A DNA stretch of 64,000 bases, from the NCBI GenBank assembly GCA_037783545.1, contig JBBELK010001000.1:434001-498000 (forward strand), read 5' to 3'. The translations under genes were made by a program, and so were the position numbers. This stretch comes from Henricia sp. BOLD:AAB3569. Its lineage: Eukaryota; Echinodermata; Asteroidea; Spinulosida; Echinasteridae. Positions 31,526 to 60,205 of this stretch are shown here, in pieces (position 1 is the first letter of the stretch; every line of letters starts with the position of its first letter). The notes below the pieces were generated by a model. That model made no database searches, was not told the origin of the DNA, and saw only the letters and a list, made by a program, of their open reading frames with translations.

Positions 31526-31654
31526 GTCTCGAACCTTGCAGCATATAAGGAACACTGCGCAATAAATAAATCTCCCCATGCACGTCTTGACAACAGACTA
31601 ACCGGTTGCAGGCCGCAGCGGTTGCTGCAACTGATACGATTGCAGAAAAATGGA

Positions 31655-31962: not shown

Positions 31963-31979
31963 TGGGGAAAGCCATGCCA

Positions 31980-32145: not shown

Positions 32146-32180
<35 letters not shown>
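31980..32180. repeat. G-tract then long C-tract
   Basis: G-rich then almost pure C for about 90 bases. Gly/Pro homopolymer frames on both strands are artefacts of composition. The end of the C-tract is the left edge of the 1.5-kb duplication. Confidence 0.85.
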
Positions 32181-33336: not shown

Positions 33337-33408
33337 TGCCTTATAGCTCAGCTGGTAGAGCATCTGCATGGTTAGTCAGAATTCTCGGGTTCGAATCCCT
33401 ATAGTGTA
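33337..33408 (+). pseudogene. Degenerate tRNA-like sequence, copy 1
   Basis: 72 nt with a good D arm (TAGCTCAGCTGGTAGAGCA) and T arm (GGGTTCGAATCCC). The acceptor arm pairs only partly and the anticodon stem is mismatched; if read with a seven-base loop the anticodon would be GGT (Thr). More likely a tRNA relic or SINE head than a working tRNA. Confidence 0.5.
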
Positions 33409-33647
33409 ATCCGAATAACATTTAGTGAGCCCGCCTTCTTGTGGTTATTCCATTGTTACTGCGGTGTATGTCTATTGTGACGTCACGTAAACGCATTGGA
33501 GATACACCGCAGTTTTCGTTCGTTGGATTAGTCTATGAGCAAGTTCGGGCGGGCGACTATAGTTAACTATATAGACTAACCATAGTCGATCTAGATGTCA
33601 CCCGAACGCTCCCCCCCTTCCCCGCCCCCCCCCCCCCCCCCCCCCCC

Positions 33648-33681
<34 letters not shown>

Positions 33682-34837
33682 CCCCCACACGGGTCACACG
33701 GGAAATCTCGTAATAACTCTATCGTGATATGATCATGATAGAATGAACCGACGACGAGAGCGGTCACACTATATAAGTGTGCATGTGAAAGAAAGTACGG
33801 CAGTACACAAGACACTATTACGCAAAAGGCTAATTCACAAAACGTGCCAGCCAGACATACGTGTTATACTGGATCTAACCGTGCAAATAGAAGCTATCCC
33901 CGCGTGCCTCGGGCTTTCAACTTTCGGCTCGAGCTGGTTTATCGCAAGATGAGGCGGAAATCCGGTTTCATGTTGTTCTTCAATATGTTCCGCGTCTGCC
34001 TATTCTTTTGGCTCATTAAATAAATTGACACGGCCTGTGTATAAGGAGATCAAAACGTGGAGAAATGATGACCGTCGTATGGCGATACCAATGAATTTAC
34101 CTCATAAATACAAATTTTATTTTAAGATTTTTCACGAGTTCAGATTCGCATAGACTATTTGTACTGGCGGCCATGCTGGAAAGCAAAATTTCTTATTTAA
34201 ATCGTGTTGCAATGGAAGCACAAAGCATAAAACCTCCTGACAATTATTTGGGGCATTTGTCTCCCGTAACAATAGACCATGTTCATGGTTTGAACGGTTT
34301 AAAGGGGCCCCTGAACTCACTTCGATCGAACGCTGATTGCATGGAAAGATACCAGACTACTTATGCGTTCCAAGCCTCTTCTTCAGATCGAGGCTTGAAC
34401 GCATGTGTAACTGGCACCTTTCTTTTGCATTCTATAGAACTGACTAGGGGACACGATTGAATCGTTCAAACGCGTGAATAGGGTCTATAGATATCCCATG
34501 GCCGCGCCGATTGAACGCAACTTGTTCTCGATTGATAGGTGGTGTGTGATCATAGAGTTATATAAGCCGTATACAACTGTATGTGTGTGATCCTGTTCGG
34601 GCGCGAGAACGAGTTGGAGCGTGTCAATTAAAAATAACAGACCACCCGAACTCGGCATGCAGTCCGTTGTATCGTGTCGTCCCGTATCTAGGCTTCTTTT
34701 GGTTCCACTGGGAATCTCACGACGATTCATGTCGGCGGGACTGGCGTGGCGCTTTAAGCACACCGTATTTAGGCCTTTAGCACACAGGTCTACAACATAA
34801 TGGGTTCATAGGTAAAACCTGAGGGAGTATACCACTG

Positions 34838-34909
34838 TGCCTTATAGCTCAGCTGGTAGAGCATCTGCATGGTTAGTCAGAATTCTCGGGTTCGAATCCC
34901 TATAGTGTA
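34838..34909 (+). pseudogene. Degenerate tRNA-like sequence, copy 2
   Basis: Identical counterpart of 33337-33408 created by the 1.5-kb duplication. Confidence 0.5.
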
Positions 34910-35036
34910 ATCCGAATAACATTTAGTGAGCCCGCCTTCTTGTGGTTATTCCATTGTTACTGCGGTGTATGTCTATTGTGACGTCACGTAAACGCATTGG
35001 AGATACACCGCAGTTTTCGTTCGTTGGATTAGTCTA

Positions 35037-35549
35037 TGAGCAAGTTCGGGCGGGCGACTATAGTTAACTATATAGACTAACCATAGTCGATCTAGATGTC
35101 ACCCGAACGCTGCGTGGTTTGACTAGCTAGTCTGCATGACTAGAGGAACCAAGCCCCGGGCCGGGTATAGGTTCATCTCTAGTCAGTTGTAATCACGTCA
35201 CTTTTCAAGATGGTGGAATTGTAAACGCGATTGAAAAAAAAAAGCTTTGGCTAAAAAAGTGTTACTTTATATCAGAATTAAAGATGGATTAATAACCAAT
35301 TCTAAGGTAGCTTTTGGTGAACGAATTGAAATGTCTTTAGTATAGAACATACGAGGGCAAACATGAGGAAAAAGGTTGCCAACAATTGCTTGTAAGTATT
35401 TTTTGTAAACCGTTGTCCACGGCCAGTGCAGACGATTTCGGCCATGTTTGACTAGATTTCCCTGACGACGCGTTCGGGTGAAAAACAAACTACGCATGTG
35501 CGAAAAAAAAAATCGCAAATTGACTAATGGTTAGCACCCGAACTTGCTC
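35037..35549. mobile_element. Inverted-repeat element with GAGCAAGTTCGGG ends
   Basis: Left GAGCAAGTTCGGG and right CCCGAACTTGCTC. In duplication unit 1 only the left part is present because the unit boundary falls at CCCGAACGCT inside it, so the element predates the duplication. Non-coding. Confidence 0.5.
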
Positions 35550-35772
35550 AAAATAGGCCTAAGGCCCCTTACGATATCTCTCTTATCCGAAGTTTGGTTT
35601 CATTTCAATGGTGATCGGTCACCATACCAGACATTGCGTTCGGTCTCAGATCCCCCTCCAGGTTTTTTTGTTAATCAGTAAAATTGTTTTTATCGTAAAT
35701 GATCCGTAGGTTGATGATGCTCTCAACATTTCAGCTCAGCCACACCCTGCAGGCGCACTGCCCCGCTATACC

Positions 35773-35916
35773 CAGCACGATATGTGGCAGAGGGACTTCC
35801 CCCTAACGCCACTATACCACCAATGCCCCCTAAAAACTGAAAGGAATTCCTTGGAAATTCGAGACACAATAGGGGAACAATGGTAGGGGGCAGTCCGTTT
35901 GCCACATATCGTGCTG
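35773..35916. mobile_element. MITE, family CAGCACGATATGTGGC, complete copy upstream of RPL23
   Basis: 144 bp with CAGCACGATATGTGGC and GCCACATATCGTGCTG ends. It stops 106 bp before the RPL23 start codon, so it may overlap the promoter. Confidence 0.85.
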
Positions 35917-36007
35917 CATATGTGCCCCGCCCCCTTGGAAAAAAGGCAGTCGAGCTCGAAAAGCGCCCTCTCGTGGAGATGGGAGGCCAAGTCTAGTCTA
36001 TTCCTAG

Positions 36008-36022
36008 ATCTTTTGGTCCAAC
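36008..36022 (+). promoter_or_regulatory. RPL23: Candidate TOP-type transcription start of RPL23
   Basis: A pyrimidine run beginning with C (CTTTT) lies 13 bases before the ATG. Ribosomal protein mRNAs begin with a C followed by pyrimidines, which puts them under mTOR-dependent translational control. The short leader would be only about a dozen nucleotides. The match is brief, so the exact start is inferred. Confidence 0.4.
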
Positions 36023-41772
<5,750 letters not shown>

Positions 41773-41960
41773 TTTAAAAGAAATTCGACCAACGTGGGGG
41801 ACAACAGGCAAACATCTCAAATTGAAAACCCTGTATATTGGCAATGCTGCGTAAGGTGTCTCATATAAAGAGCATTGATATATGAAACCACGTGTATTGT
41901 CATGGATAGAGCCAGCCAACACATAATGTAATTATATTTTCAGTGGGGCATGTTCAGCTG

Positions 41961-41966
41961 AATAAA
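41961..41966 (+). terminator. RPL23: RPL23 polyadenylation signal
   Basis: AATAAA 189 bases after the stop codon, the first canonical hexamer downstream. Confidence 0.6.
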
Positions 41967-42118
41967 ACTCGATTGCTTAAAAGACAGAGAAATACTTATT
42001 GTTCCGATTTCATTATTTCAGCTTCTTAAAAAAAAAGTGCTGTTACCGGTAAATTGTGCATGCCAGGAAGGGTCAACTGATTTTTCTGCCAAAGGTTACC
42101 TTTAACAAAACAAGCGAC

Positions 42119-42175
42119 TTAAAGGAACACGTTGCCTTCAGATTTCACGAAATCTCACGTTTGAGGGTGTTCCTT
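42119..42175. mobile_element. TTAA-type MITE fragment (AGGAACACGTTGCC)
   Basis: TTAA followed by AGGAACACGTTGCC and, 40 bases on, GGTGTTCCT. It resembles the ends of TTAA-flanked elements but is very short. Confidence 0.35.
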
Positions 42176-42482
42176 ATACTTATTAAGAGTTGTTCTTGCA
42201 ATAAAACACATTTAATGTGTTATAATTAGTGAATGGTAATTTAAAAAAACAAACACTGACCTCTGACCCCCACTACATGTCCCGCGAAATGTATACGTAT
42301 TTCAAGCCGTCAATACGATCGTCCGGGTAGTGGGCAAAATGCAGCAACGAACAGGAGTTAGGCTGGCGCCGTAGCCAGTGGTCAGGTAAACCTATCAGAT
42401 GAACGCAAGGTACCATACCATTCTCCGCCTCCCGAGACATGTGTGAAATGTAAACACATACACACCGACTGGCTGTCAAAAA

Positions 42483-42548
42483 ATGGATCGTCAAGAGAAC
42501 ACAGCAGACTCGTCAAAAAAGAAAAAAACGAAAACCTCGCCAATCGGG
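42483..42548 (+). other. Possible unassigned 5' coding exon
   Basis: ATG opens a frame MDRQENTADSSKKKKTKTSPIG that stops exactly at a strong donor (GGG then GTAAGAA) in phase 0. The composition (Ser/Lys-rich, hydrophilic) is exon-like, but no partner exon is recognised. It could be an alternative start of a + strand gene reaching PEMT, or chance. Confidence 0.2.
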
Positions 42549-42718
42549 GTAAGAATATTGTCATGGGACAAACCGATAGAAAGGACTTGGATGATTTATA
42601 CCCAATGGTTATTGTAGACACGAATTAAAAAAACTGATGATAATACGAAATTTTTTAATGAAATAATTGTTCAGAAGTATTTCAACAGCTGCGACTGGAA
42701 ATAAGACTAATATAATTT

Positions 42719-42766
42719 CTCCGCCATTTATGGGAGTCAAGATTTTGACTCCCATAAATGGCGGAG
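42719..42766. repeat. Perfect hairpin with 22-bp arms
   Basis: CTCCGCCATTTATGGGAGTC plus AA pairs with its inverse around a GATT loop. Confidence 0.9.
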
Positions 42767-42979
42767 CGTGCTGCTTCGAGAAATTACGCAAAATTGAAGC
42801 ATTTCTAAGGCACGTTTGTGTGGATCATTATATTCTACTTTTTAAACATCTTTCAGATCGTGCTCATTATACTTCAAACGCTTGTAATAGCCCAAAAACG
42901 CCCAATAAAGCGCAACCCGAAGGCAACGTTTCCTTTAAAGTCAACAATAGCACCATGTAAAAAAATTGTGAATGATGGC

Positions 42980-43100
42980 ACAGGCTCGTCAGCAATGCGT
43001 GCCCGCCAAATTTGTGCCACGCAATACGGAGCTCCATAGCAAAGGCATGGAGCTGCGTGTTTCGAGCACGAATTTGGCGGGCGCGCATTGCTGACACAGT
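42980..43100. mobile_element. MITE, family GGCTCGTCAGCAATGCG, copy 1
   Basis: Palindrome with GGCTCGTCAGCAATGCGTGC at the left, GCGCGCATTGCTGAC at the right and GGAGCTCCATAG at the centre. Confidence 0.75.
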
Positions 43101-43353
43101 ATACTACAGGGGCATTTCATTCTGCATCCTTCCTAATTTAAAAAAACTGCAATAAATATAAATGTCCCAGAAAATAGCTTCATAAAGAACAAGAACCAAT
43201 TTGGGAGCAATCAACTCCTAGCTCTCATTAACTATTTCAGTGCCAAGGTCGTACATGTAAGATCTCTATTGTATAATTTCTTTTTTCTTGCAACACGCCA
43301 ACCGTCGTACATGTACGACTTCAATTTCAAAAAATTACGCACTTTAGGGTTAA

Positions 43354-43431
43354 AGGCTCGTCAATGCGCGCGAGGCCAAATTCAAGCCACGAAATACGCA
43401 GCTCCATAGCACAAGCCTCTGCATGTTAACA
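43354..43431. mobile_element. MITE, family GGCTCGTCAGCAATGCG, copy 2 (right part lost)
   Basis: Begins after TTAA with AGGCTCGTCAATGCGCGCGA and reaches CGCAGCTCCATAGC before breaking off. Sits beside CGTACATGTACGAC repeats (43240-43345) that recur inversely at 40380-40500 in RPL23 intron 3. Confidence 0.6.
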
Positions 43432-43937
43432 GCAATGGGCACTGAAAGAGTTGAAATCAATTTTAGCTAAATTGTCAAATTGCTCCGATGTCAAACACAA
43501 ATCAAGGGCAATTTACATGTTCATTAATTTCAAGTAAATGACCCTACAATTCTTCTGAATGAGGCATCAAGTTTACCTGTACTAAAGATGACAGTGCCGT
43601 AGGCACAGGATAGACCACTCGTTCAAAAGGCGCCATTTTAGTAAGCAAACTAGACGTAACTTTTCGCCACAACATAGATTACAGTACCTATGGCACTATA
43701 TTATCTTTGCCTCTACTTGTATTTAGTGACTTCACCGATTTCAGCTCCGACAGTAATTATGGGGGGGAAAAAATTCCAGGCACAAGTGATTTATTCCAAC
43801 ACTTACTTTATTGTCACTTGTAAAATACACAGCAATCATAATTTAATGCCATCTATTTATAGCACCTTGATCATATTTACAGCCATAGTCTTTAATATAA
43901 AAATGGTTTCAATGGCACAAATATTTTCATGAGTTAA

Positions 43938-44041
43938 AGGCACAGGCTCGTCAGCATTGCGCGCGCGCCACATTCTTGCCATGAAATACGCAGCTCCGTG
44001 ACTTTGCAACATGGAGCTGCGCATTGCTGATGAGCCCGCCT
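43938..44041. mobile_element. MITE, family GGCTCGTCAGCAATGCG, copy 3
   Basis: TTAA on both sides (43934-43937, 44042-44045). Ends AGGCACAGGCTCGTCAGC and the inverse GCTGATGAGCCCGCCT. Confidence 0.75.
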
Positions 44042-44427
44042 TTAAAGGACGGACTGCTCCATTCAACGAGTCAAATGGAAATTTCATCGTATGAAAAACC
44101 ACTAAAACCTTAATATATATACATATGTACGTTGAAAATAGATCACGCAAAATGGATTTTCACGCAAGTGAAAAAAAGGTACTATTTGACCTTTGGCGTC
44201 ATAGGTCAAACAGTAGTATATTTTCACATGCGTACAAAATATTGTGCTCGTGTGAAGCATCCGGCAATATTTGAGTTTACGTGGATGAAGCCAAAGCGCA
44301 TTAATGGTGAGCGTACTTTTGCTCGTGGGGGAAATACCAATGTATGAGGTACTGTATATACAGGTAATACCTGCGTGGAAGATTTTTCGCATACAGAGAG
44401 TATCACAACATCCAATGAAGGCAGCTC

Positions 44428-44599
44428 CAATAGACTACAAAAGTGAAAACGTCGCCCTTTGTGTGTTGCCATGGTTTTTGGGTCTACACTAAAACCAGTG
44501 AACTGTTTCCCTGCGCTATATCAATGGACGTTCAGATTACCAGCGAATGTTTAGACCCAATTACCATGGCAACTGATGTCACACTTTAGTAGTCTATTG
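44428..44599. mobile_element. MITE, family GTTGCCATGG/TTTAGACCCAA, copy 2
   Basis: CAATAGACTACAAAAGTG and its inverse at the ends; inner arms GTTGCCATGG and ACCATGGCAAC; contains GGGTCTACACTAAAACCAGT, shared exactly with the copy at 51836. Confidence 0.75.
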
Positions 44600-44608
44600 A
44601 CAGTGTAC

Positions 44609-44862
44609 TTGGGATGAGAGAACTCATAAGGGCCTTAACGGGATTCGAACCTGTGACCTCTGACTCACATAGCATAGCTATAAGATACAGTTGGTGATTA
44701 GGTACCATACAGATGTTGCATATTTTTTACTTAATTTTGCCCAGTTGCGCTACCATGCAACACCGAGAAAAGAATTGGGACCTGAGAGAGTATAGCTCAG
44801 CGAGTCAGAGGTTCGAATCCTGATAAGGCCCTTACGATTTTTCTCTCATCCCAAGTTCGGTT
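44609..44862. mobile_element. Palindromic element whose arms carry tRNA-like B boxes
   Basis: CTTGGGATGAGAGAA and TTCTCTCATCCCAAG ends; arms also pair through TAAGGGCC and GAGTCAGAGGTTCGAATCC. Each arm thus carries a pol III B box in opposite orientation. It begins 57 bp beyond the NCBP2AS2-like stop codon, i.e. in or near its 3' untranslated region. A partial relative is at 35560-35650. Confidence 0.65.
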
Positions 44863-44918
44863 GTTTCCTTTCAATGGTGATTAGGCACCATACCAGATGT
44901 TGCGTATGTAATGACATC

Positions 44919-47900
44919 TCAGTCTTTGAACCGGTTCTTTTTCATCTCTCTATCAATGTCTTTCATGCCCTCTCGGAGCTCTCTAGCAAAGTTCCTTGTG
45001 AATGATGACGTCATGCTACTGCCTTTCCCGACCTGTTGCCGTGTCTCGTCCGACATCTTTTTAAGCATTTCAGATTCTGACGCCTTTTCGATGGCTTCAT
45101 GACCTGTTGGTAAAAATTCAAGACAACCAATAAATATTGGATCGAATAGCTAACAGCAACCGAGACTGTTCGCCTGTGCAGTACTGGGAGGGGAAACGCT
45201 AGAAAGATTCAACTGATATAGAGTAACCAGGGGCATCAGAATTTTTTTTTTTTTTGATATTGGGTTGGAAAATGTTTTGGTTGTTCTGGGGCCAATTTCA
45301 TAAAGCTGTTTAGCAGAAAAATTTGCCTAATCTAAAATTTGTTTGCTTTATAAAAATGGGTTTTCAGTAAAAATGTTATACAATGTGTATTACATTTGAC
45401 TGGTGTTCGACTATTCTTGCTAAAAACAGAAGTTGACTTACAAATTTTGGATTAAGCAAATTTTTCTGCTAAACAGCTTTATGAAATTGGCCCCAGGTCA
45501 GTTAGATCCCCAGATATTTTGACGTAAAAAACCCAAAAATACACATTTTGAAAGTGAGCACCCTCGAAAAATCTTCCGTAAGAAAATTTGCCATCCATAT
45601 GTATACCACATTAAAGACACTCCCCCTTTCAAATTTTAACATGAAAAAAAAAGTGTTGCTTGTTCAGAGCAGTAACATGTAGACCTGGAAAATTTACGTG
45701 ATAAAAAATGTTAAACCATTTTCAAAATACACCCACCCTCTATGCCCCAACCTCCACCCCATCCCCCCCGATAAAAACTGGTGCAAAGGAGAAGCTGATT
45801 AAGTCAACTAAACTCTGCTGAACCAGACTGCACTTGATTCAAAATTACCTTACGACTGGCTACTAAAGAAGACCTACATGTTATCTATTGTTTTCCCACT
45901 ACCCCTCCCCTTAGGCGGGGACTTATTCAGGTTTTCATTTTTCGTAGGGATTGTCACATAAATTTGCCCCAGGGTGGGGATTTGTCACTTGACAATGGGG
46001 GGGGGGGGGGGGGACAATTGACAGGTGCAAGGGGACCCTTCTTGAGGGTGTGCTATGGCTTGTGCGGCCTACAGAAAGGGCCTCTGAAGCGAAAAGGTCT
46101 CATCTGGTACCAACCACCTGGCTATTTACTGGTAAGTGGGTTTACCGGTAAAATTACGGATCTTCAATAGGAACACGCTACAATTCAAAGCAATTGACTC
46201 CAGCAGTGTGACGTCAGTTGCCAAGGTAACTGGGTTTAAACACTCATTGGTGATCTAAAATGTACATTGCTAAAGTGCCAGGAAACAGTTCACTGGTTTT
46301 AGTTTAGACCCAGTAATCTTGACAACACAAGGGTTACATTTTCACTTCTATTACAGTAAATTCTCATTATAGCGCTCAAACTCTATATCCAGAGAGCAAT
46401 AACCTTTGCATACACAATTAATAGAGTATCCTTCGGTACTTAGAAAGAAGAGCTTTATATCAGGGGGCGTTATAACAAGAGTTTACTGTAACTACAGCAA
46501 ATGCATAGTTCCGACCTGTCAATCAAGCCGAACCCGCCGACCAATCATAACAGAGCTAGCAGACATCGCTCACATAGGTCAAAGTGCATTGCATCACAAC
46601 AACACAACAACATACAGTTTGTACGGTGTTGTATGCGGTGATCCAGGTGAATTTTTGGTTTAAAGGCCGGACGATTCGCTGAAAGCATGTATTTCATGAT
46701 AACATGACATCCCTGTATTACTGGCCCTTTACTCAGTGTATAACTGTTGACCCTGAAACATGAATACCTTTGAGTTTTCTCCAATGAATCTGTGTTTTCC
46801 GTTGAAAGTCCCATTGGTTTGTGCAGTGTGTGTGGACATTTTGAGGAATAGCGTGTGAGGCATAGCAACAAAATCCAAGGGGGGGGGGGGGGGGGGGGGG
46901 GGGGAGTTAACTGGGCAAACTCGGAACTATGCATTGATGAGGAAGGCATTTACACTTACTGACAGCTTTAGCTTTATTGATGCTGTAAGCGGTTATCTGG
47001 GCCACTCTTCTCATTAGACGAGACTCGGCTAACTGAATAAATGGAGAAAGAAAACGATTGCTAACTGGTTCACGTGCATTTAAACTCCATATTATTGAGA
47101 AAAACATGACAATTATGAGATTGTTAGCTGCAGATCAAGGATAATATTGAGGGGAAAATAAAAATTTGAAAATTTTGATCACAGTACAGGTATTCAAACA
47201 GCGCCCTAATGAATTTTTTTCTGTGCCATCACGGAACATTTGACGGAATTAATGACAATATCACTAATATTTTATAAGTGTGCACTTTTTTAGATGTCCC
47301 TGACACTCGCATACAATTACTGCAAACAAATTGCAAGTCATGCGTCTTGGGTCAATACCTTTTCTATGAGTTGTTCATTGGTTGCAAGATATCTGCGGGG
47401 ATAAAAACAAAAAGAATATTGCTGTTTACAGGATAAACACTGTCGCAATGTAATTTGCGCAAATGTTCACCACGAAATGTTTGATATCAGATTCATGTCA
47501 GATTCCCATTTGCATTCGCTTTCACGTGAAGTAGGAACCAGCGCGGTAGTAACCAGTCTCCTTCTGCTCGAGTCCCAAGTCAAGTTGCCTCCGAGTCCAA
47601 AGTCGAGTCAAACTGCCTTCGAGTCCCAAGTCAAGTCAGGCATATTGGTCAAGTTGGGTCAAGTCAAGTAGTCATGACAGTAAATTTCAAAATGAGTCTG
47701 AACACAAACTCACATTCATGTTGCTTTGGCCAAGGTTTCTTCAGTGCTGAAATACAATTCGGTCCTCAAAATAACAAACAAATGCATAAAAGATGTATTT
47801 TATTTTTGGCAGACTCGAGTCAAAAAGCCCGAGTCAAGTCATTGAGGTTTGAGTCTCAAGTCAAGTCAGTGAAAATTGGGACTCGAGTCCGAGTCTTTAC

Positions 47901-48032
47901 AACCCTGGGTACCGGGCCTAATTCATATTCTATAGGAATTCCTCTTTGCATACATCAGAACTAACTAATCACTTAATACTTTGACCCAGTCTTTTAGTAA
48001 AATTCTTACCTTAGAAGAAATCGCAACGGCAT
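44919..48032 (-). CDS. NCBP2AS2: NCBP2AS2/KRASIM-like microprotein, four coding exons, 104 aa
   Basis: Coding exons in order on the minus strand: 48032-48010, 47392-47359, 47032-46960 and 45103-44919. They sum to 315 nt (104 residues plus TGA), and every junction has GT-AG sites in matching phase. The protein begins MPLRFLLRYLATNEQLIEK and continues LAESRLMRRVAQITAYS; vertebrate NCBP2AS2 begins [20 protein letters not shown] and continues SESRPIRRAAQLTAF. The C-terminal FTRNFARELREGMKD matches the vertebrate FRDAFTQELRRGL. In between is a charged, helix-prone stretch (EAIEKASESEMLKKMSDETRQQ). The basic amphipathic N-terminus could be a mitochondrial targeting segment (inference). The human protein, also called KRASIM, is reported as a microprotein with links to RAS signalling and mitochondria; its biochemical role is unsettled. 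In human the gene is antisense to NCBP2; no NCBP2 exon is visible here. It converges with RPL23. Confidence 0.9.
45286..45496. mobile_element. MITE, family GGGGCCAATTTCAT, copy 3, in intron 3 of the NCBP2AS2-like gene
   Basis: CTGGGGCCAATTTCATAAAG and the inverse CTTTATGAAATTGGCCCCAG; inner arms share AGCAGAAAAATTTGC. Confidence 0.9.
45999..46013. repeat. G homopolymer
   Basis: A run of G in intron 3 of the NCBP2AS2-like gene; a second, longer G run is at 46879-46903. Both are likely length-variable. Confidence 0.8.
46203..46351. mobile_element. MITE, family GTTGCCATGG/TTTAGACCCAA, copy 3
   Basis: GTGTGACGTCAGTTGCCAAG, TGGGTTTAAAC and the inverse GTTTAGACCCAGTAA with CAGTTCACTGGTTTTAG inside. 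In intron 3 of the NCBP2AS2-like gene. Confidence 0.7.
46351..46492. mobile_element. MITE with TTACAGTAAATTCTC ends
   Basis: TTACAGTAAATTCTCATTAT on the left and the inverse ATAACAAGAGTTTACTGTAA on the right. A solitary related end occurs near 8117. Confidence 0.7.
47547..47908. repeat. ACTCGAGTC/CAAGTCAAGTC repeat element
   Basis: Left part: several GAGTCCCAAGTCAAG units; right part: GACTCGAGTCAAA, AGTCTCAAGTCAAG and GGGACTCGAGTCCGAGTC, ending TTTACAACCCTGGG. Probably a single element built from short subrepeats, lying in intron 1 of the NCBP2AS2-like gene. Confidence 0.6.
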
Positions 48033-48276
48033 GCTGAAATTGGTGCCAGATGAAGTAATAAATACAGTCAAGCACAGTGTCTCCACTAACAGCGTCTCCA
48101 CGATGTACATAGGCCCACACTCATTTGTACTGAATGGTTTAACTCATGATGTAGATTAAGAAAGATGCAACTGAAATAAAAACAAAAATAATTGCACCAT
48201 TCGCCTTAGCTTTGTTGTAAAATCATAAAAATGTCATTAATGGAAGGATTTTCAATAACAACATCAATTTGGTTGT

Positions 48277-49724
48277 TGGTCAACTCGCCCCTTACCTACT
48301 CGCCAGCCCCTTTCCAACTCGCCAAGTCACCCCCCCCTGACCGACTCGCCCCCTGGCCCAATTGCAAAAAGTGTCCCGACTGCGAACGTGAAGCGTACCA
48401 TGCGACGTCACAGCACTGCAATTTATTTTTACCCTTATTTTTGTTTTGTTTATTATGCAGAACTTGGAAATTTGTTTATAGGCCTACAGTGGGGTGTGGT
48501 TGAAACCCGGAGGTAACCCAGAGGTAGAATTTTTTGTGACCGTGTAGTACATGCTATGCCAGCTGTTTCAACCTACCTCCAGCTTGTTATACCGTCAACA
48601 CACCAACTACACATTGGCAAAAAAAATCTACCTTCGATCGGGTACCTCCGACCTTTATAAATTTCCCCTACCATTGCCTACACTACAGTGACGGCAGTCA
48701 AGAAATATTGTATCTAGCCTACATTTTTTTTAGCAGTGCATAATTTTCATTATCGCAAAAAGAATCACATGCCGGGCCCGGCGCCCAACACTTTTCGCAA
48801 TTGGGTCATTCCATGTCAAATCACCCAATGGGTTAAACTCGAACCTCTCAGATTTTGTTGAAACTTGGTATACTTGTTGATTGGGATCCCACAGCACCAA
48901 ATATCAAAATTTAGATCAATCGGACCAGTGGTTCCGGGGATATGGTCCCCCGAATTTTGGAATTTTTGGCTAAAAGCGGCATGGACGTCTACCTTTGAAC
49001 CCTAATATCCCAGGAACTACTGAACCAATCTTCACGAGCGTGGTGTTGTTGGAAAGGTGATTATTCAAAGATTCCAAATTTGTCATTATTTTGGGGATTG
49101 AATTATGTTTAGGGTGCATTGACCCTTGATCTTTGCTATGCTAAAATATCCCCACCCCTATTGCAGGTGCGCGTGCCCACTTTTGAAGGGAAAAAACACC
49201 CCCACCATCCCACAAAATTAAAACGCACCTGCCAAAATGGTGCATTATAGTAACTAATCAAAAACTATCGTCACATCCTTTCCGATTCCCAAAGTGGTGC
49301 CCGGAGTCTCATTTGCCGCAATACATAAAAAATAAATACAGGATTGCTCTTTATTTAGAATTTAGAAAAGAAAAACCACTGGTCCGATTGATCTAATTTT
49401 TGATATTTTGTGCTGTGGGATCCCACTCATGACTCAACAAGCACCAAGTTTCATCAAAATCTGAGAGGGTCGGGTTTAAAATGTCTTTTTTTTTGGGTGA
49501 TTTGACATGGACTGACCCAATTGGACCACTTTACGCAATTGGGTCAAGGGAGTAGGCCAGGGGGCGAGTTGGAAAGAGGCGAGTCGGCCAGCGGGCGCAA
49601 GCCCTATAGCTTGCGTGTAATTTTCACAGGAATGTTACGCAATAAAATGTTGCGCAAGCGGACTTACGCAGTGCGTAAGGATTCGTGAAATCGGCTGCTG
49701 GCGCTCAGGGGGCGAGTTGAGCCG
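48277..49724. mobile_element. Element with CAACTCGCCCC ends, host of a nested element
   Basis: Left GGTCAACTCGCCCC with repeated ACTCGCC motifs; right GGGGGCGAGTTGAGCC with repeated GGCGAGT motifs. The centre is occupied by the element at 48799-49522. It lies roughly 250 bp upstream of the NCBP2AS2-like start codon. Confidence 0.65.
48799..49522. mobile_element. Nested element with CAATTGGGTCA long inverted repeats
   Basis: CAATTGGGTCATTCCATGTC and the inverse GACATGGACTGACCCAATTG, with arms continuing for about 130 bp (shared GGGATCCCACAGCAC, GATCAATCGGACCAGTGGTT). 724 bp, non-coding. Confidence 0.8.
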
Positions 49725-49792
49725 ATTTCATCAATTTTTGTGCATTCACTTTCTTTCGTTTGACGATAACGCACGGAAACATTTCAACGAAC

Positions 49793-50448
49793 GGTATTTT
49801 TTTCGTATACATTGAACAAAGATTTTAAGGAAATTATCTTGTGGAATTAACATAATATAATTTTAAGATATACTTCCCACTTGCACTTTTGTCGCAAATG
49901 TTGCTTTTTTGTAGAAAAATTGCATTTTCTCCTTCAAAAATTTCCTTTAGTTAGTGCACAAGATAACCATTCACACACGAGCGCAGTGACCTCTGTTGTC
50001 GCGCTTACGCACAGACCGCTCGCCGCGTCATTTTGTGCATTACTTTACAGGGGCGGATCCAGGGGGGGGCGTGGGGGGGGGCGCACGCTCCCCTTTTTCT
50101 GCTTACTGTGCACACTTTTCCTGCTTAAAGTGGTTAAATATTGCCTCAGATCGCACCACAGCATCTAGAATCCATCTAGAAGCCGTCAGGGCTTCACGCT
50201 ACGCGCTTGCTATTTCATTGTCATCAGCATTTCATGCTTAAAAATTTCACGCACCCCCCTTTTCAAAATCCTGGATCCGCCCCTGCTTTATGCAGTAATT
50301 TTATCATTTACTTATCTCAGGAATGCAACATTTGCGACAGACTGAGATTAAAGTGCAAGTGGGAAGTATATCTTGGAATTTGATGATCTGTTGATTCCAG
50401 GAGGTAATTTCATTCAAATCTTTGTTCAATGTATACGAAAAAAATACC
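49793..50448. mobile_element. MITE, family GGTATTTTTTTCGTATAC, copy 2 (carries an insertion)
   Basis: Matches 39745-40149 on both sides of the insertion at 50048-50285. Confidence 0.85.
50048..50285. mobile_element. hAT-like MITE, CAGGGGCGGATCCAGG, with 5-bp target duplication
   Basis: CAGGGGCGGATCCAGG and the inverse CCTGGATCCGCCCCTG. CTTTA is present on each side (50043-50047, 50286-50290) and once in the empty site of the sister copy near 40000. 238 bp. Confidence 0.85.
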
Positions 50449-50976
50449 CAACGAACATATTAAACACAATTATCCTCATAAGATTGGTTTCCCCATTAGC
50501 CTATGTCATATCACTCAAGCGTGACCAGTGCGCTTGCGCATTGAGGACCGAGAGCAGACAAATGTCAATATGGCGAATGGAACAAAGGGTTTAGCGTTTG
50601 TGTTCGGCCGCCATGTTGACAATTGTCCGCTTTAGTCGGTCACGCTTGAGTGTGTGACAGAGGCTAATGCCATGGAGCTATAAAAGGATGGTTTCCCTTC
50701 CTACCTACAAAACCTTTCGCGTGAAAAAGTTACCAAACCATGTCAACAAAGAGCGACCTCAAGAGCCGGATGATAGACAGGCAAACCTTTAATGTACGGA
50801 GCCCGCAAAAGGACTCAATTCCAAACAGTTTATACTTATTTCGTTTTCTCCGGGGTTTTCTCGAAATGACAGTGTCTCAAAAAAGTAATATAATCACATG
50901 TTTTCTGTGTAGAGTAGAGTACATGCACTATGAAGTAGAAGCAACTACCCTCGCAGACATGTTTTGGATGTCTTAA

Positions 50977-51419
50977 AGTTGCATTGCCCGTGTTTCGGTG
51001 AAAGGATTAAAAAAATTAATTTACACAAGCGAACGAATTTAGAAAGCTTACGTGTCTCTGTAACGAAAAATATCAAAAACTTAAATTTCCGACGTCGGGA
51101 ATTGGAGATACAAGCCTTTTTCTTGAAACGTGCTTCACATGTTGTACATGTGCGCGTACGCTCATATGTACATAGTATGTGTACAATGTACACATGTACG
51201 CGCACATGTACATTTACGTCATAACCCTGTCGATTAAATGACCTGCCAGCCATTTAATCATTTCTTGTTTTTAATCGACTGGCATTAATCCTTGACGGAT
51301 TTTTGCGTTCTTGGTACCAAATGAAAGCTGATAACTTTTTCTATTCTAGAAAAATACCTATTTATCTTTTTTTTTTTAAATTTGACGCCCAAATCGGCCA
51401 AAACACGGGCAGTGCAACT
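50977..51419. mobile_element. TTAA-flanked MITE, AGTTGCATTGCCCGTG
   Basis: Ends AGTTGCATTGCCCGTGTTT and AAACACGGGCAGTGCAACT with TTAA at 50973-50976 and 51420-51423. The interior has further palindromes around GTACATGTGCGCGTACG and ATTAAATGACC. Confidence 0.85.
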
Positions 51420-51835
51420 TTAACTTTCAAAATGGACTTGCAGTTTAGAATGGTCTAGTACTACGCTGTTGTTGCTACGTGGTGCGCGCCAATGCCTGGC
51501 AATGAACTGTGTGGTAATTTGTTGCTTTATGCCATTCTCTCCTGCTGTGAACCCAGCATTGATTCTGTACTTCACACCTGCCGCACCACATAGCAACAAA
51601 CATTTTGTCTGGTCAAGTGCATTTAGTCTGGTCGGGTACTGTGCACGTGAAATAAAGTGTGTCAGTTCACCAGATAAGAGAAACATACAAAAGGCTAATT
51701 AACAATGCTGGTAGCCTAACAGAATGGGTCATCATCATTTGCATATATAATTTGTGTGGGGGCGGGTCTAGGTGTGTTCAGTTAATTTCGGTGGCATATT
51801 GCAGATGTGCAGTATGGGATGGGGACTGGATAGAA

Positions 51836-51915
51836 AATAGGACTAAAGTGTGTTGCCAAGGTCGCTGGGTCTACACTAAAACCAGTGAACTGTTTTCCAG
51901 AGCTTCAGCAATAGA
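51836..51915. mobile_element. MITE, family GTTGCCATGG/TTTAGACCCAA, copy 4 (half)
   Basis: CTAAAGTGTGTTGCCAAGG then GGGTCTACACTAAAACCAGT; the right half is replaced by the next element. Confidence 0.65.
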
Positions 51916-52020
51916 CCCTTTGCATCGGCGGCCATGACAGGGGGCAGGTTTTCATATTTAAATGCGACAATAGCTCCACAAAATACCTACTTGTACTTTC
52001 GTGTATGACGCACGGTGACA
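51916..52020. mobile_element. MITE, family GCGGCCATGACAGGGGG, half copy
   Basis: GACCCTTTGCATCGGCGG then CATGACAGGGGGCAGGTTTT, matching one arm and part of the centre of 39114-39256. Confidence 0.6.
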
Positions 52021-52065
52021 ATGACGTTCAAAATATAGACGTTTAAAACAGGAATAGCATTACAC

Positions 52066-52160
52066 TATAAGCAACTAACAATGGAAATTGGGCACAAACC
52101 ATCGTTATTAACAATGGTTTGTGCCCAATTTCCATTGTTAGTTGCTCATATAGTGTTGGA
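52066..52160. repeat. Hairpin with 33-bp perfect arms
   Basis: AGCAACTAACAATGGAAATT begins the left arm and its inverse ends the right arm; the loop is about 11 bases (CGTTATTAACA). Confidence 0.85.
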
Positions 52161-52405
52161 TACTAAAGACTGAAAAATAAACTGCCTTGTAGAAATTTCC
52201 GCTGTTTTGTGTTGAATGAATGGTAAAAATTAATTGACATTTAAAAAAAAAAAAAGCACCTTCAGTTGGCAATTTCGTCGACAAAGGTATTATTTTACAC
52301 CGGAAAGGGCATGTGCGGTTTGTTACAAAATTTCTGTCAACACCTTTAGTCGGATTTTTCCTGTCAACTCGTAAAGTACGACCATGGAGCTAGATGTACG
52401 ACACA

Positions 52406-52611
52406 TGGGGTGTTATGGCCGAGCGGTCTAGTGCGTCGAACTTAAGTTCCTGTGCTAGTTAGTACTAGAATGTAGGTTCGAATCCAGGCCGCGACGGGTT
52501 GTGGCACCTGTGCCCTTGAGCAAGGCACTCAACCACACTTGCTCCCATTCCTGTAATTGGCGGTTCTCCGCTGTTGGATATGGTAAATAAATAAATAAAT
52601 AAATAAATAAA
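52406..52611 (+). mobile_element. tRNA-derived SINE with (AAAT)n tail
   Basis: Head with GTTATGGCCGAGCGGTCTAG (A box) and GGTTCGAATCCAGG (B box), core GCACCTGTGCCCTTGAGCAA, then CTGTAATTGGCGG, and a tail of AAAT units at about 52584-52611. The core is shared with the longer minus-strand SINEs at 11687 and 53694. Confidence 0.9.
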
Positions 52612-52835
52612 CATGCAGACAATTTTGGGTCACTGTAAATGTACTGCTTTAATGTCGTATAAGAACCACCGTAGCAATGTTTAGCAGCAGCCGTGTCTGT
52701 CGTTTACGGCTACGACTTTCATAGTTTGACAGAGAAAAACTGAAGCCCTAGCTGGTCAGAGGACATCTGTTGAAATCCCGCGGCAAGGTGAAAGGTGGTA
52801 AAATCGCGAGAGAGGTTGTTTTTAATGTTGTTTTT

Positions 52836-53300
52836 AAATTGGATTTAATGTAGGAAAATAATATATCAAATTTAAGCTGAGCATATCCCTCGAAGGAATA
52901 GAGCTGAAGAGAGATCATGATGGCAAGCTTCACTGAACAGGAATGCAACAAAGGAGTGTGGGGTCAGAATGAAAAAGAACAATGCAACTTGTGATTTTGG
53001 CAATTTGTGTACCGAATCAAATTGGTTAAATTGTCCAATCTGGATCGTGCCATTGCATTTATAGCACTGATTACATGGATTAGGTATGGTGAAAGCAAAA
53101 TACTGAACTGTAACTCCCCTTGTTTGAGTGCAATAAAGTTGACATTGTTTTGTGTTTTTCATTCTGACCCCACACTCCTTTGTGGCATTCCTGTTCCGTG
53201 AAGCTTGCCATCGTGGACTCCGTTGAGCTCTATTCTGATCCTTTGAGTGATATGTTCAGCTAAAATTTGATATATTTTTTTCCTACATTAAATCCAATTT
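52836..53300. mobile_element. Element with about 130-bp terminal inverted repeats
   Basis: AAATTGGATTTAATGTAGGA and TCCTACATTAAATCCAATTT ends; arms also share GCAAGCTTCA and AGGAGTGTGGGGTCAGAATG. Non-coding. Confidence 0.85.
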
Positions 53301-53609
53301 CATAATAAATATCTACAAATGTCTTACTGGTGACGGGAACCTTTTTGGTCGAGTGTATAAATGTGATTATTTTTTAGTTGGTCCACAGCCCACATGTATA
53401 CATCACATAACCCCCCTTTACATGCAAATATACCACATGATAGAGAATAGGGCCGAGGTAACCTCAGCTAGTTTTCCATCAAATCTGCACTTGCTGATGC
53501 TTGATTATTCATTTTAAAGAAAGAAAATTCTGATCAACTTCTCAGTCTTACCATTTAACTGGGGACTGTATACTCCTAGGGAGCTGAGAAGGATTAAGGA
53601 ATGATATTA

Positions 53610-53692
53610 ATGAGCCCAATGATCAGGGGTAATAATGCAGAAAGCGCATTGAGAGATCCGTCGGACCTGTAATGCGCTATATAAGAACTGTC

Positions 53693-53693
<1 letters not shown>
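53610..53693 (+). mobile_element. SINE 3' tail fragment
   Basis: AGCGCATTGAGAG and AATGCGCTATATAAGAACTG followed by ATT repeats, a pattern typical of SINE tails. It runs into the (ATT)n of the next, oppositely oriented SINE. Confidence 0.5.
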
Positions 53694-53723
<30 letters not shown>

Positions 53724-54063
53724 TATTTCTGGTATTCATACCAAGGATTCCTCAATAGTGCTCATTGCACTGTCACTCGTAAGCGTGAGGAAACCCATGA
53801 AGAATTATAGAATTAGAAATGGCCAGAGACACCGGGGAATCCCCTTGCTCTTCACGAAAGAATGCTCTGGGATCTGTAGAGTGCGTTACAATTACCCAAC
53901 ACACTGGACCAACGGCTTTACATCCCTTCCGAAGGATGGAGCAAGTGTGGTCGAGTGCCTTGCCCAAGGGCACAGGTACCGCAGCCGGATTCGAACCCGC
54001 AACCCCAAGTTTTCACCCATGATTGCGAGTCAATGGCCCTAACCACTCGGCCACGGTACCCCA
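53694..54063 (-). mobile_element. tRNA-derived SINE with (ATT)n tail, second copy
   Basis: Near-identical to 11687-12056: minus-strand head with TACCGTGGCCGAGTGGTTAG and B box GGTTCGAATCCGG, core TGTGCCCTTGGGCAAGGCAC, and the (AAT)n tail at its left end in this view. Confidence 0.9.
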
Positions 54064-55205
54064 CGGTATTATTTAACCCGTATTTTTTTGGGACACCCTG
54101 GCTGTTTAACACGATACCGATACTAGCTTCCACATTTCTGCTCAATTTCAGAAGGGCCGAATGCTCAGATGGCCACAGGGTGTTGTGATAACGGACCATT
54201 TGGTATGATTGATTTAAGCAAGGTATATAATTATAAAGGACTTCTATATTAGTAGGCTTGGGCGGCTCCAGCATTTCCGGATTCTACTCCAATTCCAAAA
54301 AAGAATCGCGATTCCATTTTCGTCTCGGAAAACCATTAACTACATTTAGCGTGTTTAAGTGCGTGTCGGTGTACATTCACGATACTACATATTGTGCTGA
54401 TAAAAACCCAATTATTGGCACCGAATGGCACTACGTACATAAAATGATCCGGCCTGTGCCACACACATGATCCTAAGTAATATGTGGAAATAATCAGAGG
54501 CTGGAAACTCTTGCAAAAGTGGAGTGTAATTTTGGCTTCAGAATTGCTAGGTAATTTCTGGATTTGGCAAATATAACTAAATAACAATGAATTGAATCTA
54601 GATGTAACTATTGATTCCTACTGGGAATGGATTCCTCAAATCTGGAATCGCAATTCCTATTCACAAATTGGATTGGATTCTACTCGATTCCGGCGTGAAA
54701 TTTCCCAAGGCCTACTGTATAGCCATTTCTTTGCACAGAGCTCTATAGGTTTGGGTAAAAATCTAGCACCGGATAAGTGATTTGCTAGACCACTGCCAGA
54801 AAAATACATTTGCTGTCTAAATTTAAAAATAAGATATGGTACAAAATCCAGACCACCTATATTTCCCAAACAAATTTATCCGGTTACATAAAGCAATGCA
54901 GTGATTAGACAATGGAGGTTAGACTAACCTTTTTGCTTCCACATCCAAACTGGGGATTGCAAATTTCCCATTTCTCTCATGAAAAGAACGCTTAGAACGA
55001 AATCTATATATTTAAAAAAAAATCTGGTCACACTCCTTTATGCGGTTAAATGTCGTCCTGTAATTGTGTAATACTGTCCTCAATTTTTTGGCAGCTTTTT
55101 GTGGTACTGTTTTGTAATTGACTGTACATTAGAACCTAATATATATTTATTAAAACCTTGCATTTTAATCTCGAACCTCACATCTTGTTGAATTTGTACC
55201 ATTAG
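54064..55205. other. Non-coding stretch upstream of the PEMT exon
   Basis: Includes a TTTTTTTGGGACACCCTG element end near 54082 (also at 38582) and GATTCC/GGAATC-rich sequence at 54270-54720. No gene recognised. Confidence 0.4.
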
Positions 55206-55325
55206 ATGGAATTACATGTACCAGCCTTTCTATCCGATTGCCAAGGCCCTCGCATTGACTGGACCAACAGGGGTCTGTTTGTGGCAGCTGCTTTCATGGT
55301 TTTCAACCCACTCTTCTGGAATCTT
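55206..55325 (+). CDS. PEMT: Phosphatidylethanolamine N-methyltransferase, first transmembrane exon (partial gene)
   Basis: PEMT converts phosphatidylethanolamine to phosphatidylcholine by three S-adenosylmethionine-dependent methylations in the ER membrane. The exon encodes 40 residues, MELHVPAFLSDC... then WTNRGLFVAAAFMVFNPLFWNL, and ends in phase 0 at a GTAAGT donor. Human PEMT has PLDPSFVAAVITITFNPLYWNV at the same place, also ending at an exon boundary. The hydrophobic run is the first membrane helix. I chose the Met at 55206 because it gives a short N-terminus like other PEMTs; a TAG just before it could also be a splice acceptor, allowing an upstream exon. The following exons, expected to begin with a VARWE-like motif, were not found in the remaining 8.7 kb. 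Confidence 0.75.
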
Positions 55326-55561
55326 GTAAGTACCATAATAAACCAATATTCATCTGCTGTCTCAGGATGTGGCCAGGATAGGTGTGGCGATGTAGTTGTA
55401 AAGCCCAATAATATGCAACGTTAGTCTGCTACACATTGTGTGTAACTGTGTGTTGACGCTAAATAGCATGACCGCACGACATGGGTTTTAAAAAATGGTA
55501 TTTTTTATTCGTCCAGATTTAACACATTTTAGTAAATTTATATATTGGAACTGATAGCTTA

Positions 55562-56165
55562 TTCAATTCTAAGATATACTTCCCACTTGCACTTTGTCGC
55601 TTTTCTGTAGAAAAATCACATTTTGTCCTTCAAAAATTGGGTGGCAGGTCAAGTCGACCGTTTGCCGACTCGACCGTCACGCTTGACCGTCACGATTGAC
55701 CGAAGGAGTCAACTTGACCGTTGTACCAACTCGACTCCTACCAACTCGTTGTAACTGTAGAAGTCAACTCGTCAGTTGTGTCCCACTAAACTAGTACATC
55801 ATGTAGTAGATAGCCGGTGTGAAAATAAGCATAATGTACTGTACATGCCTAATGTATAAAAAAAGAGGACAGCTAATGGGTCTATGATAATAATGAACAT
55901 GGAGCAGGGATGGAGTTGCTGCATGTTATTCCCTTCACTTAGCAGTCGAGTTGGCCAACGGTCGAGTTGACTCGACTGTGAAGTCGAGTTGGTCAACGGT
56001 CAAGTTGGTAGGAGTCGAGTTGGCAAACGGTCTAGTCGACTGTAAAATTGCATTCAGTTAGTGCACAAGATAACCATTTACGTGCACATGCAGCGCTGCG
56101 CCCTCCGTTACGCTTACGCACAAACCACTCGCGCCTTAAATCCGTATTCAATCTAAAAAAAACAC
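55562..56165. mobile_element. MITE, family GGTATTTTTTTCGTATAC, copy 3 (carries an insertion, ends eroded)
   Basis: Shares AAGATATACTTCCCACTTGC, GTTAGTGCACAAGATAACCA and CTTACGCACA with the other copies. Split by the element at 55640-56043. Confidence 0.7.
55640..56043. mobile_element. Nested element of GTCGACCGTTTGCC repeats
   Basis: Left GGTCAAGTCGACCGTTTGCC and right GGCAAACGGTCTAGTCGAC with many GACTCGACCGT-type subrepeats in both orientations. AAAATTG flanks both sides (55633-55639, 56044-56050), a 7- to 8-bp duplication supported by the empty site near 39890. Non-coding. Confidence 0.75.
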
Positions 56166-58219
56166 AAAAAACTGTGTAGGCCAATGAAAATTAAATTACG
56201 ATGACGGGTATCCAGATGCGTTTTGTCATTGATCTGTGTTCTTTGTGGGACAACTCATGGTGTCTAATTGACATGAGCTGTTCTACAAAAAACAAAGAGT
56301 CAAGATACGAGTAGACCTTTGGTAGACGAAGCTTTCGATGACGACAAGGAGGCACTAAATGCCTTCAATGATGCCGGCGTTGGGATAAAAAAATCATTCA
56401 TTCCATACACGCTCACTTCCCGCTCACCATGGGAAAAATTCCTTACACATTCACCATTAATTTCTCTTAATACAACAAATTTTAGGAGGAAACAAATTTA
56501 GCAGTGATAAATTCCAGTGTTTCTGTGACAAACTCTGAATTGTTATGAAATGCTTCTGCAAGAATTTACAAGTCAGACATCACAATTTGTTTCTCCTTAA
56601 AATGACTTACCAGCCATCAGTAGGTGCAGATCAATTGTTAAAACAAAGATTTTACTATGAGAAACTTTGAAATTGTTCACCCTCTGCCGACTTGTAAAAT
56701 CTTTTCACGACCATTCTGCTTGGGAAAAAGTGTACATTTCAGCAATATGAATAACTGATGAGAACCGAAGATTTTTGCTTGAAAGCAGTATGTTTGACAA
56801 AATGCAATCGATAGGCTTAAAAGGGTAAGCGCTTAAAAGCTACTTCAAGTTGGTCTTGTGTTTAAAATGTGTCGGTGGCTGAAAAATGTCCAAGGTTTTT
56901 TTCTACCAAGTAAAAATTTCTCCCTGCCAAAGTTTGGTTTTGTACCGAATCTGCACTCAAGTACTGATGTGCTGATAAGTTATTTTAAGGAAACATAGTG
57001 ATGGCCAACTTGTAAATTCTTACGGGAGATAAGACTGTATCACAACAATATAAACCATCACATAACACATTTCAAAGACATCAAATACAATCGAGTAATT
57101 CACAGTAACACTTACCATCAAGACGATTTACTGGGTCTTGGTGTACAAACGTGCAGTGCAGTTCAGGTCCGGTGCAAACTCCAGCTGCCCACTAGCCCAA
57201 ATGACCACTTCTCCCACAAACAGCCCCCTTTTCTACCCTTGCATAATCCCCCCCAACCATCCAGGGCATCACCCACAATCTTTACTCTTGTCTAGGACAT
57301 CAGCATAACAATAGCAGGCATCCTTCAGCATTGGTAGGATGCCAGCAGTACGTACTACCCACAATGAGAACAATAGAAGCCTTAGCTTGGGTAGTCCCCC
57401 CATGGCTTATTGTTGTCTCTCCCCAGAAACCTTGTCATATTGTCTTGCTTCCAAGCAATAGACCTGTTACTAAGGGTATTTGCTTGGCTTGGGGTTTGCT
57501 CAAATTTAATGCCCCAATTCAATTACTGATCCTATTGTGTACGGATTACTGTTTGTCTGGTGACTGTCACTAATGCTTCCATTATGATTATGAAATAGCT
57601 GTGCTGGAATAGATGCATCCTTAGAAATGGTGATGATAAAATGCAGTTAGTAGTTGTTGTTGTTGGTATAATGGCACATATGGCAATCCGAGTGCCCTGT
57701 GTGCCATGCAGTTAGTAGAGCTTCAATGCATAATTTATGTGAGAATCTTTCTGACAAAACAATTTCAACCAAATTTAAATTAGCAAATAAAGATCAAAGG
57801 GGAGAGGATTAAATCAATCCTAAAAATTGTTCTTATCTTTCAATATTTAAGGCCCAGTACATCATTTGCAGTTACCAACATTTTACTTCATATGTTGACA
57901 AGAAAAAAAGTGCAATGGTAACAAACACCATTATTTTTTTTTTTCGTGTAAAATGATACCTTTGTGGGAGAAATTGCCAACTGATTTCCCCCACCCCCCA
58001 TTCATTCAACACAAAAACCATGCATAGATTTGTAAGGTTTTCCGAAGTATTAACTGCATCTTTGGCTGAGATCCATTTCTACAAGGCATTTTATCAACAA
58101 TATTCTTTAGTCATGTAATACTGTTATTCCTGTTTTTAAAAGTTTTATAATCATGTAATCTGTCTTTAAATCTTTAGAAATTTAGATTTGTAAAGAGAAT
58201 TTTTGGAAATTATTCAGAC
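56166..58219. other. Probable PEMT intron, nothing recognised
   Basis: A 60-codon frame at 56319 begins with an Asp-rich run but matches nothing I know. GAATTTACAAGTCAGAC (56552) and CTTGTAAATTCTTAC (57010) are shared with 36440-36640 and may bound a diverged MITE. Confidence 0.4.
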
Positions 58220-58221
58220 TA

Positions 58222-58641
58222 GAGCGTGATCCAAAACTGGTAAACACTGGATACAAATTTCAAAATTTCTTAAATTAATCAAAATAATACCTTGAACAGT
58301 AAAGAAATGTCCATATTTTACAATCATATTACAAAAATGAACAGAATAAATTTGGCTGGGCACACTGTGCCATCACAATTTAAAGAAATAGTTGAAAATG
58401 CATGTAAAAAATTGTAGTTTTTGTCAATTTTATTGATTGTCCGTCCCGCACGCATAAAAACAACCTCTGCATAAAACTGTAAAGTCAATTTCAACATGTG
58501 ATAAACTGGGTGTGTGTATTAACATCAGTAGCAGGTAAATGTACAGGTTTGCTTTAGTTTTCATTTGTTGTATTGAATAAGGAAAGGCATTTGTCTCTTG
58601 ATTTCCGTCCCTCATGTGAGGGATGGAATTGGATCACGCTC
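58222..58641. mobile_element. MITE with GAGCGTGATCCAA ends
   Basis: GAGCGTGATCCAA at the left and TTGGATCACGCTC at the right, with TA on both sides. 420 bp, non-coding. Confidence 0.7.
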
Positions 58642-58643
58642 TA

Positions 58644-59680
58644 CAGGATCTTGCCATCCCTCTGCTTTAATTTTTATCCTCACACAATGACTGCCAGAAA
58701 AAAATAGTAAAATTGACAACAAAACCTGATCTTTATCAGTACTATAATAACTTGAAACAGCTTTAATAGTCTTCTTATGGAACATAAACTTTGTTCACAA
58801 GCTTTCAAATAGCGGCAGGATTCAAAATTCTTTTAAAATTATTTCATTATTGACGGCTGTCAAAAAGCTACACAAAATCTAAAAACAATTTTTGGACCTT
58901 TTCTTACTCCTAATTCCTCAATAAATTGTGCTTTCCAAAGGTTTGGGGTAAAAACCAAGTTGCAGCACCACTGAAGAAGAGATGTACACCTAAGTTTAAA
59001 CTTAAAATTCTCAAATTCATAAATCAACTTTCAATTCAAGATTTCATAACAAAATGTACAAATTCCAACAGCAACTGATTCCAACCAATATTTGACTATT
59101 TATGATTTGAAATTAAGAACCATTTTTCACCATATACATTGTAAAATCCCATAAGTGGTGGCCATTCTTCTGTTGGTGATCAGTTGAAATAAATAAATAA
59201 ATAAAATAAATAAATAAATTATATACTTATGCCAAAGATGAATTTAGCATAAATGTTTGCATCAATTTTTGGGCCGGGGTCTGAGAGTGCAATTTTTTAC
59301 CTATCGAAATCAAACGTTTTATCCACCAAATTTATCCATCTCATACCAATATTGAATTGTTGTAAATTGTAATGAAGTGTTCTTTATTTTCTCACCAGAG
59401 TCATTGACTTTTATGATAAATTATCATTGGCCTTCATTGGTCCCATCCATTGATGACTCCTATTCAGAATAGGGAACTTAATCCAGCTTACCCTAAATAC
59501 ATGCTAGCATCTTGCAATTGTTGTACCTGTGGGTGTGCATGGGGGGTAGGTGTGCATGGGGGTAGGGGAGGTGGGTAAGTGATGGGGGAGGGTGTGACTG
59601 TTGGATTGTATAGTTCACTGCCTATTAATTCAGAGATCACCATGGGAATATCCCAGCCTTTCGTGCTGGGGAGATCTTAA
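58644..59680. other. Non-coding stretch
   Basis: AT-rich, with an (AAAT)n microsatellite at about 59188-59220 and a GGGGTAGGTGTGCATG repeat at about 59530-59570. No gene recognised. Confidence 0.4.
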
Positions 59681-60205
59681 AGGCCCTGTAGATGATCTGT
59701 TTTTGAGCGATTCTGCGAATATAACCATTATAAGTCAAAAGAAATACATCAACAAACTCATCCGAAGAAATTTCAGCTTTGTCAAATATACCACGTTTAA
59801 AAAAACCATGAAAATCCATATGCATTTTCCTGGTCTTGGCGGGGTGTTTTAAATATTCGTTCTCAGTTGATCGGGTACTATGTGGCTTGCATCATGCACT
59901 CTGTGGCGCATATACTGCGTGTGCGCGCGATCCATAAAAATGCATCGCGTTGGAACACGCACACGGAGTATACACAGCGCCCATGCATTTTAGACCGCGT
60001 AGATGCGAACCAAAAATAAGTAAATGGTTTGCAAACGACCTAAATAATTTCATCTTTACGGATTATTTTCTGGTAAAATTATATCATTTTGAGTGAAAAC
60101 CTTTCATTGGATAGTTGCTATTAATTCAATCTTTACTTTCAGAACTTTTCCCCTGTAAACTCGTCGATTACTTTTTGGGGTCATTGCAAATGATACACTG
60201 GGCCT
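59681..60205. mobile_element. TTAA-flanked MITE, AGGCCC ends
   Basis: AGGCCCTGTAGATGATCTG and the inverse CAAATGATACACTGGGCCT with TTAA at 59677-59680 and 60206-60209. Inner arms around ATACTGCGTGTGCGCG. Confidence 0.75.

Follow-up and report, generated by a model that had tools for sequence, protein, structure and literature searches.

NCBP2AS2 (also NCBP2-AS2, KRASIM or HIAR) is a human microprotein of 99 residues, reportedly mitochondrial. Its coding sequence is probably interrupted by few introns or none, and the gene is probably arranged head to head with NCBP2. Public databases presumably hold entries under the name 'protein NCBP2AS2 homolog' as well as an InterPro/PANTHER family of that name, in which invertebrate members are probably already included. 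The human open reading frame of 99 amino acids is reported to be translated with three-base periodicity, with evidence from ribosome profiling (PMC13272525; for a review see PMC10809610), and the protein is described as conserved and as lowering the KRAS level or ERK signalling (reviewed in PMC8649637, PMC12071610, PMC10809610, PMC11499885); reviews also report that it binds KRAS (PMC8649637, PMC12071610, PMC10809610). One paper describes the protein as hypoxia-induced, secreted and pro-angiogenic, and lists NCBP2AS2 as a gene of essentially unknown function (PMC13326166); the link with hypoxia and angiogenesis also appears in another (PMC9687826). An invertebrate member is not described in the accessible parts of PMC13326166, PMC8649637, PMC13272525, PMC12071610, PMC10809610, PMC9687826, PMC7148473 and PMC11499885, which does not imply that none is in print.

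The locus considered here lies on the minus strand of a 64-kb stretch of DNA, hereafter the window, and very probably (we put it at about 0.85) represents a protein-coding gene with four coding exons that is an animal member of this microprotein family. Because 'protein NCBP2AS2 homolog' is presumably a name already used in public annotation, the gene is regarded as an addition to a known family. Its predicted features are the following.

48033 to 48170, minus strand: putative 5' UTR segment of exon 1, preceded by a strong acceptor-like site
48010 to 48032, minus strand: coding exon 1, 23 nt; contains the start codon and the opening residues of the LRxLL block
47393 to 48009, minus strand: intron 1, 617 nt, GT..AG
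47359 to 47392, minus strand: coding exon 2, 34 nt; continuation of the N-terminal block
47033 to 47358, minus strand: intron 2, 326 nt, GT..AG
46960 to 47032, minus strand: coding exon 3, 73 nt; core with the highest conservation
45104 to 46959, minus strand: intron 3, 1856 nt, GT..AG; poly-G tracts and, by eye, an element with inverted ends
44919 to 45103, minus strand: coding exon 4, 185 nt including the stop; encodes a charged linker and the FxxxFxxELRxG block at the C-terminus
43790 to 43812, minus strand: possible polyadenylation signals, two AATAAA (43812, 43795), about 1.1 kb past the stop

A reading made earlier from the sequence alone had proposed four exons of 23, 34, 73 and 185 nt joined in phase, and these lengths are exact: the exons, all on the minus strand (the strand had not been given), join into 104 codons plus a stop, with neither an internal stop nor a frameshift, and each exon sequence has a single exact match in the 64-kb window. 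It had also held that no single open frame longer than about 60 codons reveals the protein. The principle stands, but the figure is slightly low, since the longest ATG-started frame holding an exon has 66 codons; measured from stop to stop, the exon-holding frames have 45, 42, 75 and 76 codons, all so short that a plain list of open reading frames would miss the protein. Annotation readily overlooks genes of this size with exons down to 23 nt. As to the third intron, its inverted-end element was noticed by eye at 45287-45496 (GGGGCCAATTTCATAAAGC...), and a similar one seemingly lies at about 40782-41051, in an intron of the neighbouring RPL23 gene.

The relationship with NCBP2AS2 was assessed with a working version of the human sequence, of which the length of 99 residues alone was checked against the papers. 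Global alignment of this sequence with the window protein gives 30 identities over 95 aligned residues. The local score is 111, and 5000 shuffled versions of the human protein average 24.8 (s.d. 4.1) and do not exceed 51; as a single comparison with the human protein, blastp gives an E of 4e-11 and phmmer one of 1e-11. In a spliced protein-to-DNA search of the whole window, run on both strands and on each as two overlapping halves, the human query scores 81.8, with an alignment that runs to its end within exon 4. Among 60 shuffled queries none exceeds 55.0, and the reversed query yields 40; RPL23, used as a positive control, scores 565. These values bear out the earlier proposal of a spliced gene for an NCBP2AS2 relative. 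When the human protein is compared with the window by tblastn, exon 3 ranks first with an E of 0.003, and the next match, located elsewhere, has an E of 0.018.

Both proteins are basic and of about 100 residues (104 here vs 99 in human), and their homology covers the N-terminal block and the core, which are aligned without a gap over the first 44 residues with 20 identities. The start Met, LRxLL, QLxExLxESRxxRRxAQxTA and ELRxG are aligned in both, and the C-terminal FxxxFxxELRxG block, a motif read from the window protein and the human one alone, is also common to the two. The window protein differs from its human counterpart by a nine-residue insert before the C-terminal block and by its C-terminal tail, and the window gene has four coding exons. 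From a practical perspective, the conserved core QLxExLxESRxxRRxAQxTA offers a target for mutagenesis, and the existence of a relative outside human favours the view of the human locus as protein-coding.

The contribution of the single parts was measured by shuffling blocks of the human query, 400 times each, in a spliced search restricted to the minus strand of 43000-52000. No shuffle of residues 1-18 or of residues 19-44 reaches the score (0/400 in both cases), whereas it is reached by 6 of the 400 shuffles of residues 61-85, and the full spliced score by 19 of the 400 shuffles of residues 45-99, with a maximum of 92.8 that exceeds the true 81.8. Likewise, in a spliced search of 44800-48300, masking costs 43 points for exon 3, 16 for exon 2, 13 for exon 1 and 1.7 for exon 4. 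Owing to these block shuffles and maskings, exons 1-3, the main carriers of the evidence, can be regarded as secure and exon 4 as probable. The sequence-only reading had claimed a match to vertebrate NCBP2AS2 at both ends; the N-terminal one is indeed strong (20 of 44 residues, gap-free), but the C-terminal one is weaker than implied. It is these C-terminal values that give some weight to the idea of a real gene with correct exons 1-3 whose last exon or start is mis-drawn, so that the C-terminus or the first Met would lie elsewhere. Against this, exon 4 is in phase and ended by a stop, and its peptide, compared directly with the human C half, aligns with the ELRxG block with a score of 39, matched by 9 of 5000 shuffles. 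As for the start, no stop interrupts the frame of exon 1 over the 37 codons that precede the proposed ATG, and another in-frame ATG occurs 26 codons upstream, so that the true start is uncertain. An acceptor-like site whose first exon base would be 48170 ranks in the top 0.2% of AG sites, and a weaker one (12.8%) immediately precedes the ATG; the former, together with the upstream ATG, makes a 5' exon, possibly with an earlier start, worth considering. On the other side, the human start Met is aligned with the proposed one. On balance, such a mis-drawn model is rather improbable, and it overlaps with the preferred explanation, so that the odds do not sum to one.

The splice sites were scored with a generic matrix and ranked among the sites of the same strand (scores were obtained for 3813 GT and 3256 AG). 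The donor of exon 1 (AG|GTAAGA) ranks in the top 0.08% of the GT sites, those of exon 2 (GTATTG) and exon 3 in the top 7.8% and 6.5%, and the acceptors of exons 2, 3 and 4 in the top 0.5%, 0.8% and 13.6%, respectively. The moderate strength of the exon 2 donor and the exon 4 acceptor would be compatible with a decayed or unexpressed copy of NCBP2AS2 that is intact in appearance, a possibility that we consider very unlikely, given that the 104 codons are free of frameshifts and internal stops and that none of the exons recurs as an exact copy elsewhere in the window. The three introns that have been kept argue that the locus is not a retrocopy. With exons so short and so many scored sites on the strand, it might also be asked whether unrelated frames have been joined by chance. 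This is hardly conceivable, as the score is reached by none of the 60 shuffles over the whole window and by none of the 400 of either the N-terminal block or the core, and masking of the locus lowers the minus-strand score of the human query to 40; its score on the plus strand is 44.

Profile collections and solved structures give no convincing match to either protein and hence no independent profile. In Pfam-A, nothing exceeds the cut-off for the 104 residues (a single sub-threshold match, EFL1, E 0.43) or for the human protein (three sub-threshold matches, the best with an E of 0.055). A sequence search of the PDB with the human protein returns one match only, a cytochrome P450 (E 0.12), and no convincing solved structure. 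With the window protein, among the best 60 of 105 matches up to E 10, the first is histone H3 (E 0.2), which is taken as chance. With the single sequence as query, 11 pattern matches were obtained in a viral contig collection and 56 in a collection of prokaryote genome contigs, and with a two-row alignment 54 and 220 in the same two collections; none was confirmed as a relative.

The predicted protein is small, with a net charge of +7, and none of its 19-residue stretches averages more than 0.13 on the Eisenberg scale, which makes a transmembrane segment unlikely. A mitochondrial targeting helix was also considered and found to be without support: the helical moment of the first 18 residues, 0.44, is matched by 8% of the shuffles of the window protein, the corresponding value for the human protein being 19%. 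If the transcript is spliced as drawn, it would be translated into a small, basic, soluble protein, possibly an intracellular adaptor, probably helical, whose conserved arginine-rich N-terminal block might bind or target a partner or a compartment, while the C-terminal FxxxFxxELRxG stretch might provide a second contact. This adaptor function is put forward tentatively, and the description of the human protein as secreted (PMC13326166) speaks against its intracellular part. The locus alone settles neither the function nor the history of the NCBP2 neighbourhood.

Regarding this neighbourhood, the observation made from the sequence alone that no NCBP2 is visible next to the gene holds for the 64-kb window, in which none was found by spliced search, tblastn or Pfam. 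With a working version of human NCBP2 as query, the spliced search yields 45 on one strand and 40 on the other, whereas 30 shuffled queries reach up to 49 and 50; no match at E 1 or better is obtained by tblastn in the window. The RRM family is absent from the six frames of 30000-44990 and 48033-63000, where Pfam finds only Ribosomal_L14 and one sub-threshold match, a type of scan that short exons can escape. Elsewhere, the Pfam searches were confined to one open reading frame and the spliced protein in 44991-48032, two plus-strand frames and pieces of 15000-29900, and a minor part of 1-14999. The vertebrate arrangement, beside NCBP2 and on the opposite strand, is therefore not seen within the window, which concerns gene order and not family membership. 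A single locus with no NCBP2 in the window is insufficient to establish the further claim of a secondary origin of the antisense arrangement, and the protein can be called ancient only on condition that its source organism is distant from vertebrates. One may speculate, with little confidence, that NCBP2AS2 was a multi-exon gene in early animals and that its compact form next to NCBP2 in vertebrates is a later development, for example a processed copy at the NCBP2 promoter; if true, the name 'antisense RNA' would be a late accident of position.

The gene that does lie next to the NCBP2AS2-like one is RPL23, arranged tail to tail with it, with 3.1 kb between the stops.

37280 to 41773, plus strand: RPL23 (uL14), convergent, four exons; Pfam Ribosomal_L14 in two frames, spliced score 565, PDB 8.8e-79
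37280-37363, 38702-38830, 40602-40715, 41690-41773, plus strand: RPL23 exons

The exon carrying the first residues of RPL23 was not located in the window. The intron at 40716-41689 (plus strand) has a GC donor (GCAAGT) in place of GT, and the join preserves both the frame and the conserved sequence. The best PDB matches of RPL23 are, judging from the entry codes, animal ribosomes, ahead of those of plants and yeasts, and this ranking supports an animal genome as the probable source of the window; the deuterostome named in the sequence-only reading goes beyond what RPL23 indicates.

Several other features were observed in the window. On the plus strand, an exon-sized frame at 19022-19477 matches Pfam 7tm_3 (E 7.4e-21), which corresponds to the C-terminal region of class C receptors, here metabotropic-glutamate-like by eye, and a frame at 33-461 matches DUF5641 (E 8.2e-30), a domain presumably known from BEL/Pao-type retrotransposons. 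On the minus strand, 13516-17645 contains two open frames with the appearance of a LINE-type element: one of 983 aa, which matches a reverse transcriptase (E 3.5e-38) and, just below the cut-off, an endonuclease, and another of 296 aa, located upstream, without a Pfam match. A tRNA-Asn predicted at 53975-54068 (minus strand) overlaps a repeat at 53701-54061 (92% identical to 11684-12056) and for this reason is possibly a tRNA-derived repeat. Finally, tandem duplications occur at 32102-35111 (about 1.5 kb, 99.6% identity) and at 10883-11672 (396 bp, 100% identity), and are either recent duplications or assembly artefacts.
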